Shown here piece after piece: positions 41,464 to 56,112 of a stretch of DNA of 60,427 bases. The stretch comes from Lachnospiraceae bacterium. GTDB taxonomy: Bacteria; Bacillota; Clostridia; Lachnospirales; Lachnospiraceae. Numbering within the stretch: position 1 is the stretch's first letter; every line of letters begins with the position of its first letter. The stretch lies in contig JAJPXU010000105.1 of the NCBI GenBank assembly GCA_021205305.1, positions 1 to 60,427 on the forward strand, in the 5' to 3' direction. The notes beneath the pieces are model-generated. The model worked only from the letters and a program-made list of their open reading frames with translations, made no database searches and was not told where the DNA came from. Made by a program: the position numbers and the translations under genes.

Positions 41464-41556
41464 TTATGCGCAGGGCCGGGCAAGGAGTCTTGCAGCTAAA
41501 GCGCACCCGGCCCGCGCGGGCGAGCAGGAGGCAAAAGGCCGCCTCCTACTCGATTA
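41464..41556. repeat. Dispersed post-terminator repeat, copy A (full length)
   Basis: Begins TTATGCGCAGGGCCGGGCAA, continues through CCGGCCCGCGCGGGCGAG, and ends in the CGAGCAGGAGGC...GCCTCCTACTCG hairpin. It lies seven bases after a terminator and forms most of the spoIIGA leader. Related to 25046, 45696 and 7987. Confidence 0.75.
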
Positions 41557-44547: not shown

Positions 44548-44590
44548 CTTCGGTCGGCGCTAACCGAACGTCCACTGGACGTTCAGCGCC
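44548..44590. repeat. 43-base palindromic element, first copy
   Basis: Contains CTTCGGTCGGCGCTAA, then GAACGTCCA-C-TGGACGTTC, then AGCGCC, giving a long hairpin with outer GGCGCT/AGCGCC arms. The second copy starts 111 bases later. Part of the 457-base gap 44448-44904, which holds no gene. Confidence 0.75.
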
Positions 44591-44658
44591 ACCTGCTGCG
44601 CAGGCTATAAGCCGCTGACGCGTCTTATGTCTGTGGCTTGATGGGCGTCTCCGTTCCA

Positions 44659-45695: not shown

Positions 45696-45785
45696 TTATG
45701 CACAGAGCCGGGTAAGGAATTTTGCGGCTAAAGCCGCATCCGGCTCGCGCAGCGGATAAGGTGAGAGGACTCCTCCTATCCGATT
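45696..45785. repeat. Dispersed post-terminator repeat, copy B
   Basis: Starts TTATGCACAGAGCCGGGTAA and ends with CGGATAAGGTGAGAGGA...TCCTCCTATCCG. It is a diverged relative of copy A with paired changes in the terminal hairpin (GAG/CTC to GAT/ATC type). It sits between two convergent genes. Confidence 0.7.
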
Positions 45786-45793
45786 TTATTTCA

Positions 45794-48304
45794 TTATCCC
45801 ATAATCGCGGTCACTTCATAGTGTGTCTTGCCTTCTGCGAACGGTACGACGTTCCCGTCGATCTCCTCGCCGTCTACGATCAGCTTTGCGATGCCCTTCT
45901 GGACATTGTTCGGGTTTTCTACGCGGATGTCGTAGGTCGCGCCGCGGAAGCTTCTGCTAATCGTGAAATCGCCAAAGCCTTCCGGTACGCACGGGTCAAT
46001 GCCGAGACCGTCAAACTGCGGCTGGATGCCGAGGATAGCCTGTGAAACGTCTACAAAGGTCCATGCGGCGGTACCGGTCAGCCAGCTGTTCTTCGCTTCA
46101 CCGTGACGCGGAGCGTCCGCTCCGGCTACCATCTGAGAGTATACGTACGGCTCTGTGCGGTGAATCTCACTGATGTCCTCAATGTAGGCCGGGCAGGTCT
46201 TGCGATAGATCTCAAACGCGCGGTTTCCACGGCCGACTACAGTCTCGGCGATGGATACCCATGGGTTGTTGTGGCAGAAGATACCGGCGTTCTCTTTGTA
46301 TCCTGGCGGATAAGAGGAGACCTCGCCAAGGTTCAGGTAATACTTCGTGTAAGCAGGCTGCAGGAGCATGATGCCGTATTTGGTATCGAGACGCTCTTTT
46401 ACGGAGTCAAGCGCTTTCACAGCCTGGCCTTCCTTTACGCCGATGCCGGCCATGACACAGAAGCCCTGCGGTTCGATATAAATCTGTCCTTCCTCACATT
46501 CTTTGGAGCCAATCTTCTGGGACTGGGCGTCATAAGCGCGGACAAACCATTCGCCGTCCCAACCGGCGGTGAGTACCGCGTCGTACATCGCCTGGACTTC
46601 TTTTTCTGCGGAAGCTGCCAGATCGTCTTTTCCGAGGCGGCGGCAAAGTTCTGCATATTCACGGCCGTATTTGACGAACATACCGGCGATGAAGACAGAT
46701 TCCGCTACCGGTCCTTCGGAAGGTCCGGTCGTCTGGAAAGATTCACCAGGCGTGTCGGAGAAGCAGTTCAGGTTCAGGCAGTCATTCCAGTCCGCGCGGC
46801 CGATCAGAGGAAGATCGTGTGGACCTTTGTGTGTCACGATGTAGTTGAAGGAGCGGGTCAGATGCTCAAAGAGCGGAACCGCGGTCGACTCGTCGTTGTC
46901 GAACGGAACCATTTCATCGAGGATGGAGTAATCACCACTTTCTTTTATGTAAGCAGAAGTACCGGCGATCAGCCAGAGCGGGTCATCGTTGAAACCGCTG
47001 CCGATGTCCATGTTGCCCTTCTTGGTCAGCGGCTGGTACTGATGGTATGCGCTGCCATCCGCGAACTGGGTGGAAGCAATGTCAATGATACGTTCACGCG
47101 CACGCTCCGGAATCAGATGCACGAAGCCAAGCAGATCCTGGCAGGAATCACGGAAGCCCATGCCGCGGCCTGTACCGGATTCATAATAGGAAGCTGAGCG
47201 GGACATATTGAAGGTCACCATGCACTGATACTGGTTCCAGATATTGACCATGCGGTTCACTTTTTCATCTTTGGATTCTACATGATATTTCGAAAGCAGG
47301 CTCTCCCAGTACGTGTTCAGTGCCGCAAAGGAGGCGTCTACTTTTTCCTTTGTGTCAAAGCGGGCGATCAGCTCTTTCGCCGGCGTTTTATTGATGACGC
47401 CCGGAGCCTCCCATTTTTCTTCGTTCGGGAGCTCTGCGTAGCCGAGCAGGAAAACAATGTTTTTCTCTTCGCCAGGAGCAAGTGTTACATCGATCTGATG
47501 CGCCGCGATCGGATACCATCCGCTGGCAACCGAATTCTCACATTCGCCATTTTCGACTGCCGCAGGATTCGACGCGTCACGGTAAGCGCCAATGAAGCTG
47601 TCTCGGCTGGTGTCAAAGGAGGCAACCGGGGCGTTCACTGCGGAGTACGCATAGTGATTGCGGCGCTCGCGGTACTCCGTCTTGTGATAGATAACAGAGT
47701 TAGCGCCGTCTAAATGCGAAGCATTTTCTCCCATAGACGGCGCGACCTGCCGCCGAACATCGTGAGGGGGCGCTACCTCGATTTCTACTTCGCCAGTGCT
47801 CAGGTTCCGCTGGTAGTTGGTCATATCATCTACCGCGTTCCAGAGACAGAACTCGATGTAGGAGAAAAGTTTCAGGGACTTCGTCTCATTGGAGGTATTT
47901 TTCAGTGTGAGAGAATTGATCTCACAGGAGGCGTCCATCGGGACAAACGCGAGCAGATCTGCGCTGACACCGTTTTTTGACGCAAGAAAACGGCTGTAGC
48001 CAATACCGTGGCGGCACTCATAGGAGTCCAGATCGGTCTGCGTTGGCTTCCATCCGGGATTCCAGACGGTATCACCATCCTTGATATAGTAATATTTGCC
48101 GTTCATATCGTAGGGAACGTCATTGTAACGGTAACGGGTGATACGAAGAAGCTTCGCGTCCTTATAAAAGCTATAGCCGCCGCAGGTGTTGGACACCAGC
48201 GAAAAGAAATCATTGCAGCCCAGATAGTTGATCCAGGGCAGCGGCGTCTTCGGAGTGGTGATGACGTATTCGCGGTTCGCGTCGTCGAAGTAACCAAATT
48301 TCAT
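45794..48304 (-). CDS. Cellobiose phosphorylase-type enzyme (GH94)
   Basis: A cytoplasmic enzyme of 836 residues that phosphorolyses a beta-glucosidic disaccharide into alpha-glucose-1-phosphate and a free sugar. Family GH94 is shown by the N-terminal sheet domain ([28 protein letters not shown]), [14 protein letters not shown], and the catalytic region [12 protein letters not shown] near residue 505. [16 protein letters not shown] and the C-terminal [14 protein letters not shown] follow. Residues and length best fit cellobiose phosphorylase, but laminaribiose- or cellodextrin-specific relatives cannot be excluded by eye. It is divergent from a LacI regulator with matching operators, so induction by its sugar is likely. 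Confidence 0.9.
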
Positions 48305-51642: not shown

Positions 51643-52638
51643 TTATTCTGCAGCCTCTGTCTCGGTCTCAGCCTCTTCCTCAGCGCCGATTGCTACATAG
51701 TCGTCCGGAATCTCAATGCCAAGCGTCTCAACGATTTCGGCGTTATACTCTTTGGTCACTTCCGGAGCGTATTCAATCGCCATCTCAGAGATATCTGCCT
51801 CGCCAGTCAGGATCTGAACAGCCATCTCGCCAGAGATGTATCCGATGTCATAATAGCTGATGGAAAGGGTGGCTACGCCGCAGCCGCTGCAGACGCCTTC
51901 CTCGCCGGCGATGATCGGAACACCGGCGTCCAGGCATACATTGTTGATCAACTCGGTGTTGGCTGCTGCCGTGTTGTCCGTTGGGATGTAGATAACGTCG
52001 CTCTCACCTGCGGCGGTCTGTGCTACAGCCTGGATATCATTTGAATCGGAGAATGAGTAATAGGTTACCGTATATCCATACTCTTCAAGGTATGTAGAAA
52101 TCGTGTCTGCCTGATACTGTGAGTTTGCCTCAGCAGAGCAGTAGAGGATGCCGACATTGACAGCGTCCGGGAACAGTTCATTCAGCATCGCAGCCTGCTC
52201 ATCCAACGGAGCCAGGTCGGAAGTACCGGAGATGTTGCCGCCAACAGTACCGGTGAACTCGATGTCAAGTGCTGAGCCGTAATCGGTGATAGAGGTACCC
52301 AGGATCGGGATCTCATCCGTTGCCGCCGCGCAGGCCTGCAAAGACGCTGTTGCGTTCGCCAGAATCAGATCAACCTCGCTGGTCACGAAAGAGTTGGCTG
52401 CGGTTGCACAGGTTGAAGAATCGCCTTGTGCGTTGACTTCATCGAAAGTAACCGCGTCGCCGAACGCTTCGGTCAGAGCGTCTTTGAAGCCCTGCGTCGC
52501 CGCATCCAGTGCGTCATGCTCTACCAGCTGCAGAATGCCGATCGTATAGGTCTCGGCCTCATCCGCGCTCACCCCAACGCCGCAGAAGCTGGCAACCATC
52601 GCTGCCGAAAGAATAGAAGCTAAAATCTGTTTCTTCAT
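51643..52638 (-). CDS. ABC transporter substrate-binding protein (TrpX-like)
   Basis: A 331-residue exported binding protein of the ABC_sub_bind family. It has TYTIGILQLVEHDALDAATQGF near residue 30, ILANATASLQACAAATDEIPI, the ligand-contact GTSITDYGSALD, and a closing IAGEEGVCSGCGVATLSISYYDIG. The signal peptide (KKQILASILSAAMVASFCGVGVSA) contains a cysteine, but VASFC is a poor lipobox, so membrane anchoring is uncertain. A C-terminal EEEAETETEAAE tail is unusual. It leads the operon. Confidence 0.9.
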   Translation of the reverse strand: MKKQILASILSAAMVASFCGVGVSADEAETYTIGILQLVEHDALDAATQGFKDALTEAFGDAVTFDEVNAQGDSSTCATAANSFVTSEVDLILANATASLQACAAATDEIPILGTSITDYGSALDIEFTGTVGGNISGTSDLAPLDEQAAMLNELFPDAVNVGILYCSAEANSQYQADTISTYLEEYGYTVTYYSFSDSNDIQAVAQTAAGESDVIYIPTDNTAAANTELINNVCLDAGVPIIAGEEGVCSGCGVATLSISYYDIGYISGEMAVQILTGEADISEMAIEYAPEVTKEYNAEIVETLGIEIPDDYVAIGAEEEAETETEAAE

Positions 52639-52705
52639 GGTAATATCCTCCTCAGTTTTTTACGTCAGGCACCCGCTCTGGCGGGCTGCCTGCACAGATA
52701 AAGGA

Positions 52706-52734
52706 ATTATAATGCTTTAAAGCAGGAAAGTCAA
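52706..52734 (-). promoter_or_regulatory. Promoter of the TrpX-like ABC operon
   Basis: On the minus strand TTGACT (52729-52734) - 17 bases - TATAAT (52706-52711), close to consensus. The spacer contains the palindrome TGCTTTAAAGCA, a possible operator. The leader carries a GC-rich hairpin (GGCACCCGC/GCGGGCTGCC, 52670-52691). Confidence 0.8.
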
Positions 52735-52808
52735 GAAATCAGGGGAAATTTGCTAAAAAATATGGCTGGAAAAACAGAAAAAGGCAAGTGGAAAATGCAA
52801 AAAAGAGG

Positions 52809-52837
52809 TTGACATTTCGGACTTTTGGGGTTAGACT
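52809..52837 (+). promoter_or_regulatory. Strong promoter for the antisense RNA
   Basis: TTGACA (52809-52814) - 17 bases - TAGACT (52832-52837). It points into the terminator and the 3' side of the small peptide gene on the other strand, with no coding sequence downstream. Confidence 0.75.
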
Positions 52838-52843
52838 AAATTC

Positions 52844-52925
52844 AGTATCAGAAAAACAATGATGCCACATGGCACAAAAAGCGAACCCCTCGGAGGAAGG
52901 TGAGTCCTCTGAGGGGTTCTTGCTC
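52844..52925 (+). ncRNA. Predicted short antisense RNA (candidate type I antitoxin)
   Basis: A transcript from the promoter at 52809-52837 to the bidirectional terminator would be about 80 bases and noncoding. It would be complementary to the 3' end of the convergent small-peptide mRNA through the shared terminator region. This is the arrangement of RNAII in the Fst system and RatA with TxpA. Existence is inferred from promoter and terminator only. Confidence 0.45.
52883..52919. terminator. Shared bidirectional terminator
   Basis: GAACCCCTC and GAGGGGTTC with inner GAGGA/TCCTC form a two-part stem. On the minus strand CGCTTTTTG follows (good U-tract); on the plus strand TTGCTCTTTA follows. 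Confidence 0.85.
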
Positions 52926-52960
52926 TTTACGGTGAGCTGATCCGTTTAGGCTGCTGTCGT

Positions 52961-53062
52961 CTACTTATTTCTGTCCAGCCATTTGCTAATGCAGTTGTAT
53001 ATGTAGCTTCCAATTACACTCGCTATGACAGAAACCAGAAAAACAATGATAGTATCCGCCAC
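52961..53062 (-). CDS. 33-residue single-span membrane peptide, candidate type I toxin
   Basis: The frame starts at GTG 53062 and encodes 33 residues: a short start, one hydrophobic helix (TIIVFLVSVIASVIGSYIY, about residues 4-22), and a polar, net-positive tail ending KWLDRNK. An excellent RBS, GGAAGGAGGTGA, lies 7 bases upstream. The shape (short N-terminus, one helix, charged tail with W-L-D-R) resembles the Fst/Ldr class of type I toxins and small hydrophobic peptides of Firmicutes, but I cannot prove homology by eye. Its mRNA would end at the terminator shared with a convergent short RNA. The gene is too short for most annotation pipelines. A TATAGT at 53102-53107 (minus strand) is a possible -10. 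Confidence 0.65.
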   Translation of the reverse strand: MADTIIVFLVSVIASVIGSYIYNCISKWLDRNK

Positions 53063-53240
53063 ACGACATCACCTCCTTCCATTTGGAATGAGTCGACGAC
53101 AACTATACGATATCACATAATTTAATATATGTCCACATAAATATTACTACAAAATATGAGAAAGAATAAAATGATCTGTGAATGACAATATCAGATAGAA
53201 AATAATGTATTTGCAATGAATATATGAGAAAGGAGCTATC

Positions 53241-54560
53241 ATGCGAAGAACAATCCTCGTCGGGGTCGATCTCGGCAATGATCCGAATTTTGATTATCAT
53301 ATGGAAGAACTGGCGGGCCTGGCGGAGGCCTGTGAGATGGAGGTCGTGGCGCGTGTGACGCAGAAGATGGCCGTGACCAATGCCGCCCTATACGTCGGTA
53401 CCGGCAAGGTAGAAGAGATCCGGCTGGCGGCGGAGACCGTGGAGGCGGACTGTGCTGTCTTTGACAACTCTCTGAAACCGTCGCAGCAGAGAAATCTGCA
53501 AAAAGAACTGGATCTGCCGGTACTCGACCGGACGAATTTGATCCTGGAGATTTTTGAAAAGCGGGCGCGGACAAAAGAAGCCCGGCTGCAGGTCGAGAGC
53601 GCGTCCCTCCAGTATATGCTGCCCCGTCTGGTCGGGATGCGGGAAGCTTTGTCACGACAGGGCGGCGGCGCGGGAGCGGGCGGCGGCTCCGGGGCAGGCG
53701 GCGGCCTCGCGAACCGTGGAGCCGGAGAGCAGAAGCTGGAGCTGGATCGCCGGAAGATCGAAAAGCGGATCAGCGAGCTGCGCCGCGAACTCGATGCCAT
53801 CGAACAGGACCGCGCGACTCAGCGGCAGAAACGGCAGAAGAGTGAACTGCCATCTGTGGCTCTGGTCGGCTATACGAACGCAGGAAAATCTACCTTATTA
53901 AATAGGATGCTTGACAAATACATGGGAGAGTCTTATCTGGATCGCGCAGGCAAAAGCACAGAGGACAAAAAGGTCCTGGAAAAAGATATGCTTTTTGCGA
54001 CTCTGGACACGACGGTTCGCCGCATCTCTCCGGGAGACAACCGCGACTTTCTTTTGTCGGATACGGTCGGCTTCATCGATCAGCTGCCCCACACCCTCAT
54101 CAAAGCCTTTCGTTCCACCCTGGCGGAAGCCTGCGGCGCGGATCTGCTGCTGCAAGTGGTCGATTATTCGGATCCGCACTATCGGGAACAGATGGAAGTA
54201 ACGGCAGATACTCTCCGGGAACTGGGCGCGGAAAAAATACCCTGCATCTACGTGATGAACAAGGCCGACCAGATGATGGAAATGCATGACCTGCCCAAAG
54301 TTGTCGGCGATAAGATTTATATGTCCGCAAAAGAAGGAAGCGGACTGGAAGAATTGCTGGAACTGATCCGGGCGAAGCTGTTCGCGGACTATGTCAGCTG
54401 TGAAATGCGGATTCCGTACACAGACGGCGCGGCGGTCGCTTATCTGAAAGAGCACGCGGTCGTCCATTCTCTTGAATACGAAGCGGATGGCGCCATCCTG
54501 CAGCTTCTCTGTAAAAAAAGCGACGCCGGACGGTATGCGAAATATCGGGTGGAAATGTAG
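53241..54560 (+). CDS. hflX: Ribosome-associated GTPase HflX
   Basis: A 439-residue GTPase that splits stalled or stressed 70S ribosomes. The N-terminal HflX domain has YVGTGKVEEI and VFDNSLKPSQQRNLQKELDLPVLDRT. A glycine-rich loop (GGGAGAGGGSGAGGGL) sits in the middle, then the coiled coil KRISELRRELDAIEQDR. The G domain has G1 GYTNAGKSTLLN, G3 DTVGFIDQLP and G4 NKAD. AAAGGAG precedes the ATG. The glycine-rich loop is expanded compared with E. coli HflX, as is common in Clostridia. Confidence 0.96.
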   Translation: MRRTILVGVDLGNDPNFDYHMEELAGLAEACEMEVVARVTQKMAVTNAALYVGTGKVEEIRLAAETVEADCAVFDNSLKPSQQRNLQKELDLPVLDRTNLILEIFEKRARTKEARLQVESASLQYMLPRLVGMREALSRQGGGAGAGGGSGAGGGLANRGAGEQKLELDRRKIEKRISELRRELDAIEQDRATQRQKRQKSELPSVALVGYTNAGKSTLLNRMLDKYMGESYLDRAGKSTEDKKVLEKDMLFATLDTTVRRISPGDNRDFLLSDTVGFIDQLPHTLIKAFRSTLAEACGADLLLQVVDYSDPHYREQMEVTADTLRELGAEKIPCIYVMNKADQMMEMHDLPKVVGDKIYMSAKEGSGLEELLELIRAKLFADYVSCEMRIPYTDGAAVAYLKEHAVVHSLEYEADGAILQLLCKKSDAGRYAKYRVEM

Positions 54561-55392: not shown

Positions 55393-56112
55393 TTATTCCA
55401 ACATCATACACGCGCAGAACCCATAATGCGGCTGGTAGCAGAATATCTCTACAGCCGTATTTTTTTGTATCCCCGGCAGAACCACACGCATCTTCTGCGC
55501 CTGGAGGGAACACTTCGAAAATACCAGCTCCCACTGTGGATCCGGATTCCGGAAAAGAGAGAAAAAGGAAGCATTGATCAGCTGATACACGGGCAGACTG
55601 ACATGCGCAGCGAAAGCGTCATTTACGTAGCGGAACAGGAAATCCCGCGTGCCGGTATCCTCTCTCGTAATCGTCTCCATAATACAGAACGGGAGCGGAA
55701 AGTGGTCAAAGGCATGGAACTCTTCCATGAGTTCTCGCTGCATCTGCGGATTGCTGTGCGCCTGGGCATAGGCATTCCGATATTTCGAGATGGCGCTGCG
55801 GATCTGTGTTCGGTGTCTGCGGCTGTAGGGGATGCGGACATTATCCGTCAGGACGACAGCTTTGTCATCCATATGCTGGTAATATGCAAGAGAAATCACG
55901 CAGTTCCGGCTGACCTGCAAAAACTGCCCCTCCGGCAGCATCTCCACCAGAGCCCCGATGGTTAAAAAAATGCGAATAGGGGGGGTATCTTCTCCGTACA
56001 AATGTATCGTGCACAGTTTGTCACTCACCTGTGCGTACGTAATACTGTTCACTGGAATCTGGCATTCTTTCCGGTTAATCCTGACTGATATGGTTTCTTT
56101 CTCATCCGACAT
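55393..56112 (-). CDS. LytTR DNA-binding protein with C-terminal PAS-like domain
   Basis: A 239-residue regulator. The N-terminal LytTR domain has SVRINRKECQIPVNSITYAQV, then GALVEMLPEGQFLQVSRNCVISLAYY and the basic segment IPYSRRHRTQIRSAISKY. A PAS-like domain follows (LPFCIMETITREDTG, FLFRYVNDAFAAHV, NASFFSLFRNPD). LytTR normally sits C-terminal to a receiver domain, and here there is no receiver and the order is reversed. I start at the ATG at 56112 because GGAG lies 9 bases before it; an upstream TTG/ATG (56160/56154) has no RBS. It diverges from the coiled-coil/signal-peptidase/adhesin genes and may regulate them. Confidence 0.8.
   Translation of the reverse strand: MSDEKETISVRINRKECQIPVNSITYAQVSDKLCTIHLYGEDTPPIRIFLTIGALVEMLPEGQFLQVSRNCVISLAYYQHMDDKAVVLTDNVRIPYSRRHRTQIRSAISKYRNAYAQAHSNPQMQRELMEEFHAFDHFPLPFCIMETITREDTGTRDFLFRYVNDAFAAHVSLPVYQLINASFFSLFRNPDPQWELVFSKCSLQAQKMRVVLPGIQKNTAVEIFCYQPHYGFCACMMLE

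Follow-up and report, generated by a model that had tools for sequence, protein, structure and literature searches.

The gap of some 600 bases between the substrate-binding protein (SBP) gene of an ABC transporter and hflX in a Lachnospiraceae bacterium becomes a recognisable module, and it very probably represents a chromosomal type I toxin-antitoxin locus with the regulatory architecture of par (Fst/RNAII). The window analysed is the whole 60,427-nucleotide stretch of contig JAJPXU010000105.1, and the features of interest within it are as follows.

51643–52638, minus strand: SBP gene of an ABC transporter (best NCBIfam match TrpX, 232 bits, cut-off 390)
52809–52837, plus strand: antitoxin promoter, TTGACA-17-TAGACT, 10 of 12 consensus bases
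52843–52929, plus strand: predicted antitoxin antisense RNA; ends approximate, the 5′ end beginning at the direct repeat
52849–52863, plus strand: antitoxin copy of the codon 5–9 repeat (DRb-like), CAGAAAAACAATGAT
52864–52869, plus strand: antitoxin start-codon block (DRa-like), GCCACA, predicted to pair with UGUGGC at the GTG start
52883–52919, bidirectional: predicted terminator hairpin of 15 pairs, common to both transcripts
52955–52969, minus strand: 3′ arm, around the stop codon, of a possible 5′-3′ closure of the toxin mRNA
52961–53062, minus strand: toxin-candidate ORF, 33 codons, GTG start (VADTIIVFLVSVIASVIGSYIYNCISKWLDRNK)
53036–53050, minus strand: toxin-side partner of the codon 5–9 repeat, 15/15 identical
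53058–53063, minus strand: toxin-side start-codon block, UGUGGC (duplex prediction)
53067–53080, minus strand: Shine-Dalgarno sequence (SD) of the peptide gene, GGAAGGAGGTGATG
53077–53088, minus strand: 5′ stem-loop TTCC-AAAT-GGAA, taking in the 5′ end of the SD (predicted fold)
53087–53101, minus strand: 5′ arm of the possible 5′-3′ closure (pairing in the window sequence)
53107–53135, minus strand: candidate toxin promoter, TGGACA-17-TATCGT, 9 of 12 consensus bases
53241–54560, plus strand: hflX, neighbour of the peptide locus

The original prediction described a 33-residue peptide gene with a near-perfect ribosome binding site, a hydrophobic helix and a charged tail, opposed by a promoter for a noncoding transcript of about 80 bases, with one bidirectional hairpin serving both transcripts and an ABC operon and hflX on either side. 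Each of these elements is present: the GTG-initiated frame follows the SD, the peptide (VADTIIVFLVSVIASVIGSYIYNCISKWLDRNK) is a single hydrophobic stretch followed by a KWLD tail, the plus-strand RNA is predicted to be about 83–87 nt, and the SBP gene and hflX flank the locus. The hairpin has a T run (GCTTTTT) on its minus side and a weaker one (TTGCTCTTTA) on its plus side. Both predicted transcripts fold below their shuffles, with z = -5.5 for the plus-strand RNA and z = -3.5 for the peptide mRNA.

Two features are absent from the original prediction, namely the direct repeat CAGAAAAACAATGAT and the start-codon block. Because the 5′ end of the antisense RNA repeats the toxin start region, the two RNAs are complementary at the terminator and, separately, at the translation start. 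The duplex predicted for the window has an energy of -45.0 kcal/mol and consists of two helices with seven mRNA bases bulged between the blocks; in relatives such as L040, L049 and L053 it is the start-codon block that gives the best match. Judged from the sequence, these start-region repeats are the DRa/DRb anatomy of Enterococcus par (Fst/RNAII). In the published description, par of pAD1 has two promoters that face each other, a single terminator used in common, the repeats DRa and DRb where translation begins, and an SD covered by a 5′ hairpin (PMC7472228). The promoters, bidirectional terminator hairpin, paired start-region repeats and SD-capturing 5′ hairpin of the window match this arrangement, in agreement with the Fst/RNAII layout originally proposed.

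A simple mechanism would be that the minus-strand RNA encodes the 33-residue hydrophobic peptide, which probably inserts into the membrane and is harmful if made, and that the strong plus-strand promoter yields an antisense RNA of about 85 nt. This RNA would pair with the toxin mRNA in two places, namely the stem-loop of the shared terminator and the region where translation begins, in the latter case through the two repeats (at the start codon and at codons 5–9, on either side of the bulge), and would thereby block ribosome binding. Until the antisense RNA binds, translation may be restrained by the 5′ hairpin that covers the SD, perhaps closed by 5′-3′ pairing. Sequence and comparison show the anatomy, the covariation of the repeats, the strand-specific wobble bias, the preference of each predicted pairing for its own partner within a genome and the occurrence on plasmids and phages; we infer transcription, translational repression, membrane insertion, toxicity and any benefit to the host.

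Relatives were gathered by peptide similarity alone. Forty-three places were fetched by peptide match, from the matches of this genome and a search of 98 genomes, and a scan of genome contigs found 290 encoded relatives, of which 79 loci were kept; with the window and five phage or plasmid loci these make 128 loci. Twelve were dropped, three with frames that are too long (L039, L070, L152), one non-member (L067), one with a short flank (L103) and seven that share their 5′ region with another locus, which left 116 for the count of cognate repeats. To score a repeat, the region around the toxin start (-12 to +36) was compared with bases 20–220 past the stop, and the best match free of gaps was taken. 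Loci with damaged toxins (L007, L038) are included in the counts; in L038 the toxin start is lost, and its frame position was set by hand for the repeat tests and its peptide used in no profile. A purine-rich SD similar to that in the window lies upstream of most of the relatives listed.

A cognate repeat scoring at least 10 is present in 105 of the 116 distinct loci, as against 81 of 2,320 mismatched toxin/antitoxin pairings, and at a score of at least 13 the counts are 63/116 and 10/2,320. The position of the repeat stays nearly constant, and its letters vary from locus to locus, changing in step on the two sides. In a later set drawn from plasmids, phages and IMG/VR, 31 of 32 loci have a wobble score of at least 12 (9 of 256 swaps do so); the 32 include 26 distinct loci, of which 25 also reach a score of 10 when identity alone is counted. 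The cognate start-region repeat thus provides a test, using nothing but sequence, that can support members lying beyond the significance of a peptide match. Two examples are L223 and L224, with single-sequence E values of 0.38 and 0.59, in which repeats were found and membership was later confirmed by profile.

The mismatches within the repeats are informative as to strand. Forty-four are compatible with G-U pairing, seven are the opposite, pair-breaking transitions and 27 are transversions, whereas the non-cognate best-match control has no wobble bias (84 vs 82). Restricting the count to distinct repeat pairs scoring at least 11 gives a ratio of 30 to 6, and the later set has a bias of 9 to 3 that is not significant alone. 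The wobble-type mismatches comprise 30 T-to-C and 14 G-to-A changes, and drift in base composition does not explain the bias because the former raise G+C and the latter lower it. On the pattern of these substitutions, the pairing between repeats is RNA-RNA and strand-specific.

Eleven of the 116 loci score below 10. Wobble scoring gives four of these a repeat near the usual place (L043, 12.8; L050, 11.2; L109, 10.6; L133, 10.4), and the repeats of L145 and L151 are weak even so. In the remaining five (L083, L085, L097, L138 and L154) wobble scoring found no convincing repeat adjoining the gene. We note that these five encode MEYI-type peptides, from Eubacterium ramulus and others, and that L108, which is counted among the 105, is a similar case with a 12-base match far downstream and a poor promoter. 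The MEYI-type relatives have an SD and a terminator, and a convincing antisense unit was not found beside them; they may be solo toxin genes, or may be controlled otherwise or from elsewhere.

The promoters and terminator recur with the peptide above shuffles, a check that was proposed with the original prediction. Among the 105 loci with a repeat score of at least 10, which were used for these counts, an antisense promoter with at least 10 of 12 consensus bases is present in 86 (about 2 in base shuffles) and a stem of at least nine pairs with at least four G-C, lying between the stop and the repeat, in 104 (12 of 105 when base-shuffled). At least four T residues occur within eight positions after the stem on the toxin strand in 85 of the 105. 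Toxin promoters reach 10 of 12 in 41 loci, compared to about 2.6 in shuffles. The distance from the antisense -10 to the repeat is 9–14 nt in 72 of the 105 and 15–30 nt in 23, with the repeat elsewhere in ten. The capture of the SD is also specific to the locus, with the own SD half folding better with the 5′ UTR than swapped halves do in 76 of 103 loci (p about 5e-9; two of the 105 were left out). Pairing between the mRNA 5′ end and the stop region reaches a score of 10 in 32 of 116 loci and in 194 of 1,740 swaps, so that the 5′-3′ closure seen in the window is modestly above swaps in the family and is proposed tentatively.

Many genomes contain several copies, and these appear to be insulated from one another. 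In 14 genomes with at least two loci in hand, all 34 toxins score best with their own antitoxin. The window's genome (G000) has seven family copies at E 0.001, one of which (on C130) has an altered tail, and in the seven-by-seven matrix each of the seven toxins matches its own antitoxin best; duplex energies for the seven copies agree with the repeat matrix. The same is true of all seven copies of G036 then in hand, with eight copies found later. Of the 16 places fetched alongside these in-genome matrices, 14 hold a family member together with its repeat; the repeat scores of L232 and L234, which lie in long unrelated frames, are 6.0 and 6.4. Across 102 loci (L038, L059 and L108 being left out) predicted cognate duplexes average -39.4 kcal/mol and non-cognate ones -21.8, and the cognate duplex lies below the mean of its own swaps at every one of the 102 loci and is more stable than each of 20 sampled rivals at 87, with a mild bias in this test from placing the antisense window by the cognate repeat, of which the repeat-score count is free. 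Non-cognate pairing within a genome is weaker, yet still present (for one toxin -34.1 compared to -42.5 kcal/mol).

Since each antitoxin copies the start region of its own toxin, several modules could coexist in a cell with little cross-regulation. The E. faecalis par loci likewise do not interfere with one another, presumably through their poorly conserved DRa and DRb (PMC7472228). Taken across genomes, the sequence comparisons strongly suggest that these loci form a large family of bacterial toxins under RNA control, with little interference among the copies, and with so many insulated paralogues the evolution of antisense specificity becomes readable. A bolder view, which we put forward as a speculation somewhat more apt to fail than to hold, is that evolution has built the family into a set of mutually orthogonal antisense switches, with one peptide scaffold and many barcodes. 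On this view the seven start-region words within one genome would be such barcodes, and the fast joint change of toxin frame and antitoxin 5′ end at the hflX-SBP site, described below, would reflect selection for a private barcode. We also considered whether chromosomal antitoxins might silence plasmid or phage toxins (anti-addiction), and rejected the idea: a wobble score of 14 is attained by 5 of 4,958 cross pairs in this direction and by 4 of 4,958 in the reverse one, or about 0.1%.

The original prediction noted no exact match of the peptide to a known toxin, and the window peptide is indeed below every Pfam and NCBIfam cut-off; eight other members scanned singly also reach no NCBIfam cut-off. 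With the Fst model (NF033608) the window peptide scores 10.2 bits against a cut-off of 26, and five of the 56 members have a match at E ≤1 (best E 0.0033; best score among the matches listed 16.5 bits). One member aligns to positions 1–26 of the 28-position model, below the cut-off. Matches are more numerous with NF047374, a model of a C. difficile type I toxin, where the window peptide scores 23.5 bits (E 5.6e-5; cut-off 60) and matches at E ≤1 are found for 31 of the 56 members (best E 2.4e-5; best score among the matches listed 24.6 bits). Pfam gives scattered weak matches of the 56 members to 20 families (best E 0.0013). PADLOC yields weak matches (best E 0.013). Rfam has nothing above its gathering score in 52600–53300, where two weak matches have E values of 0.64 and 0.84, and the sole match among solved structures is a serpin at E 1. 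A 52-position phage profile of unknown function, phrog_738, is matched weakly by 47 of the 56 members (best E 1.2e-5); it may represent a family of type I toxins, and a possible function for it is thus suggested.

These scores suggest a weak kinship of the family to the Fst and C. difficile type I toxins. Like Fst, the peptides are hydrophobic with a conserved W and a charged C-terminal tail (the W is invariant in 56 aligned members, and K and L are present in at least 90%). Unlike Fst, the window peptide lacks the PXXXG(C) motif, and so do 134 of the 136 family peptides checked; P...G/C occurs only in L007 and L225, within tails altered by an inserted repeat. Because the Fst cut-off is not reached and PXXXG is absent, we do not file the family as Fst, and the locus is best described, from these comparisons, as par-type in its regulation with a toxin family of its own. 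A further difference from par/Fst is that the present family is found mostly in Clostridia, and that a genome of this genus can hold as many as nine copies (at E 1e-4). TxpA/RatA, to which the layout was also originally compared, has an antisense overlap confined to the 3′ region; the likeness to it is less close, since a repeat of the start region is characteristic of par.

Two other systems are relevant. Lpt/RNA II of Lactobacillus rhamnosus plasmids has a 29-residue toxin and an antitoxin RNA of 74 nt, 24 of which are complementary to the region of the start codon (PMC5608710), and as described it resembles the present family in the short toxin and the complementarity to the start region. 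It is reported there as plasmid-restricted in Lactobacillus, whereas our family occurs in many copies on clostridial chromosomes; one member (L077) is found on plasmids of Ligilactobacillus salivarius. The C. difficile pairs CD2517.1-RCd8 and CD0956.2-RCd10 have convergent toxin and antisense RNAs and small peptides with an N-terminal transmembrane segment, and the C. difficile type I systems are described as having several copies per genome, antitoxins that are mostly cognate-only, and prophage copies (PMC6563280, PMC7699646). The convergent RNAs and the preference for the own antitoxin (both predicted here), the small size of the peptide, the multiple copies and the presence on phages are shared with our family. 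The C. difficile tails are lysine-rich, whereas that of the window peptide is KWLD, and the best listed NF047374 score of 24.6 bits falls well short of 60; the passages on these systems used here do not mention start-region repeats. Among the literature matches listed, with many subscription papers (including a survey of par homologues) lying outside the scope of the search, there is no paper on this toxin family. The name asparagiforme appears in PMC6563280, and some family members may have been seen before.

The site between hflX and the SBP gene could be compared across genomes of the genus. SBP matches number 48, in 39 of 47 genomes; 30 loci were fetched, hflX adjoins the SBP gene in ten of these, and the module is present in seven of the ten. 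In one of the seven, G035, the promoter, SD and start of the toxin are gone but the antitoxin repeat has persisted. At the hflX-SBP sites of G042 and G028 the module is absent and no remnant is visible in the alignment. In G010 (C34, L174) the antisense promoter and one repeat are joined to the hflX SD, with the junction as in G035, which suggests that the rest of the module was lost by deletion between the two repeats. The original prediction had named a peptide frame broken in close relatives as evidence against it, and it was not refuted: the 102-base frame is identical in G036 (0/102 changes), as is the hairpin (0/37), with 42/500 changes in hflX, 4/40 in the antisense 5′ part and 6/29 in the antisense promoter. 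G040 departs from the window to a much greater degree in the toxin frame (38/102), antisense 5′ part (19/40) and hairpin (9/37), with 9/78 changes in the toxin promoter and 5′ UTR and 47 in 418 aligned positions of hflX. Its toxin start is diverged, yet its own repeat matches at 17/17. No close counterpart of the G040 frame is present among the loci in hand, and it may have arisen by divergence in place or by replacement from an unseen source.

The family is widespread. Within the genus, 33 of 47 genomes carry one to nine copies (E 1e-4), and class-wide at least 26 of 393 sampled genomes have one at E 0.001, with up to 20 candidates scored per genome. The relatives are mostly in Clostridia, and many of the peptides have 27–31 residues. 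Seventy-two plasmid records have a match at E ≤1, weak matches included, with hosts such as Streptococcus, Enterococcus, Ligilactobacillus, Aerococcus and Carnobacterium; the plasmid loci tested for repeats are from nine of these records and three others. In 40 plasmid records listed there is no annotated gene under the match, the gene table being incomplete. There are also 22 IMG/VR loci and eight phage records. Together these point to a toxin family that extends over Clostridia, Negativicutes, small Gram-positive plasmids, fecal phages and an inovirus record, and the plasmid and phage copies suggest a role in the retention of mobile DNA. The inovirus relative (L288; bajarodino virus 15, PQ006183.1, Inoviridae) has no annotated gene at its position and passes the cognate-repeat test; no inovirus paper is among the ten literature matches listed of 54.

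Seven toxin-gene copies have a palindromic repeat (core CCCGCTTGCGGGAGGAT) inserted at the same approximate place, just before the KWLD codons: G000:C130 (L007), G000:C165 (L236), G036:C20 (L225), G036:C33 (L070), G038:C204 (L230/L237), G032:C156 (L231) and G042:C1 (L244). The KWLD tail is lost from the frame in the five of these copies that were translated. These five keep an intact antitoxin repeat; of the six copies that could be tested, all but L236, L244 alone has none (score 7). Antitoxin-only loci are known elsewhere, as in E. coli orz (PMC11264685).

The peptide could instead be a small membrane protein with a non-toxic physiological role, for example a regulator of the ABC transporter, with its translation tuned by a cis-antisense RNA. 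The proximity of the window copy to an ABC transporter operon is consistent with this, as are the seemingly solo copies that lack a recognisable antisense partner, since a cell would not be expected to tolerate a toxin made without restraint. However, small plasmids and phages carry copies, some species lack the module at the hflX-SBP site, and the profile kinship points to type I toxins. The pattern of decay also argues against it, in that the toxin is hit (the start in G035 and the tails of the seven palindrome-bearing copies) while the antitoxin repeat survives in G035 and in all but one of the six testable copies. A non-toxic role therefore seems unlikely to us.

The direct repeats themselves might be DNA elements, either protein-binding sites or recombination repeats, and the G010 deletion does resemble a loss between two repeats. 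A DNA site would be expected to have symmetric mismatches, as in the 84:82 control, but the 44:7 bias is strand-specific for G-U pairing; moreover, the letters vary by locus, the position is that of the translation start, and in 72 of 105 loci the antisense -10 is followed at 9–14 nt by the antitoxin repeat. We regard this interpretation as highly improbable and take the repeats to be RNA pairing sites. Chance juxtaposition of a spurious small ORF with an unrelated promoter and terminator deserves mention because ORFs this short are common, with 132 of at least 20 amino acids in 9 kb of the region. It is already refuted by the comparative data, and we give it practically no weight: the frame is 100% identical in a species with 8% divergence in hflX, a single scan found 290 encoded relatives, and cognate repeats are present in 105 of 116 loci.

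The palindrome with core CCCGCTTGCGGGAGGAT is also dispersed outside the toxin genes, with matches in 15 of 47 genomes of the genus and up to 25 in one of them. Five other stretches of the window (41501–41556, 44589–44653, 45699–45752, 47701–47772 and 55396–55437) have 79–90% identity to fetched loci on other contigs or in other genomes, and are possible dispersed repeats.
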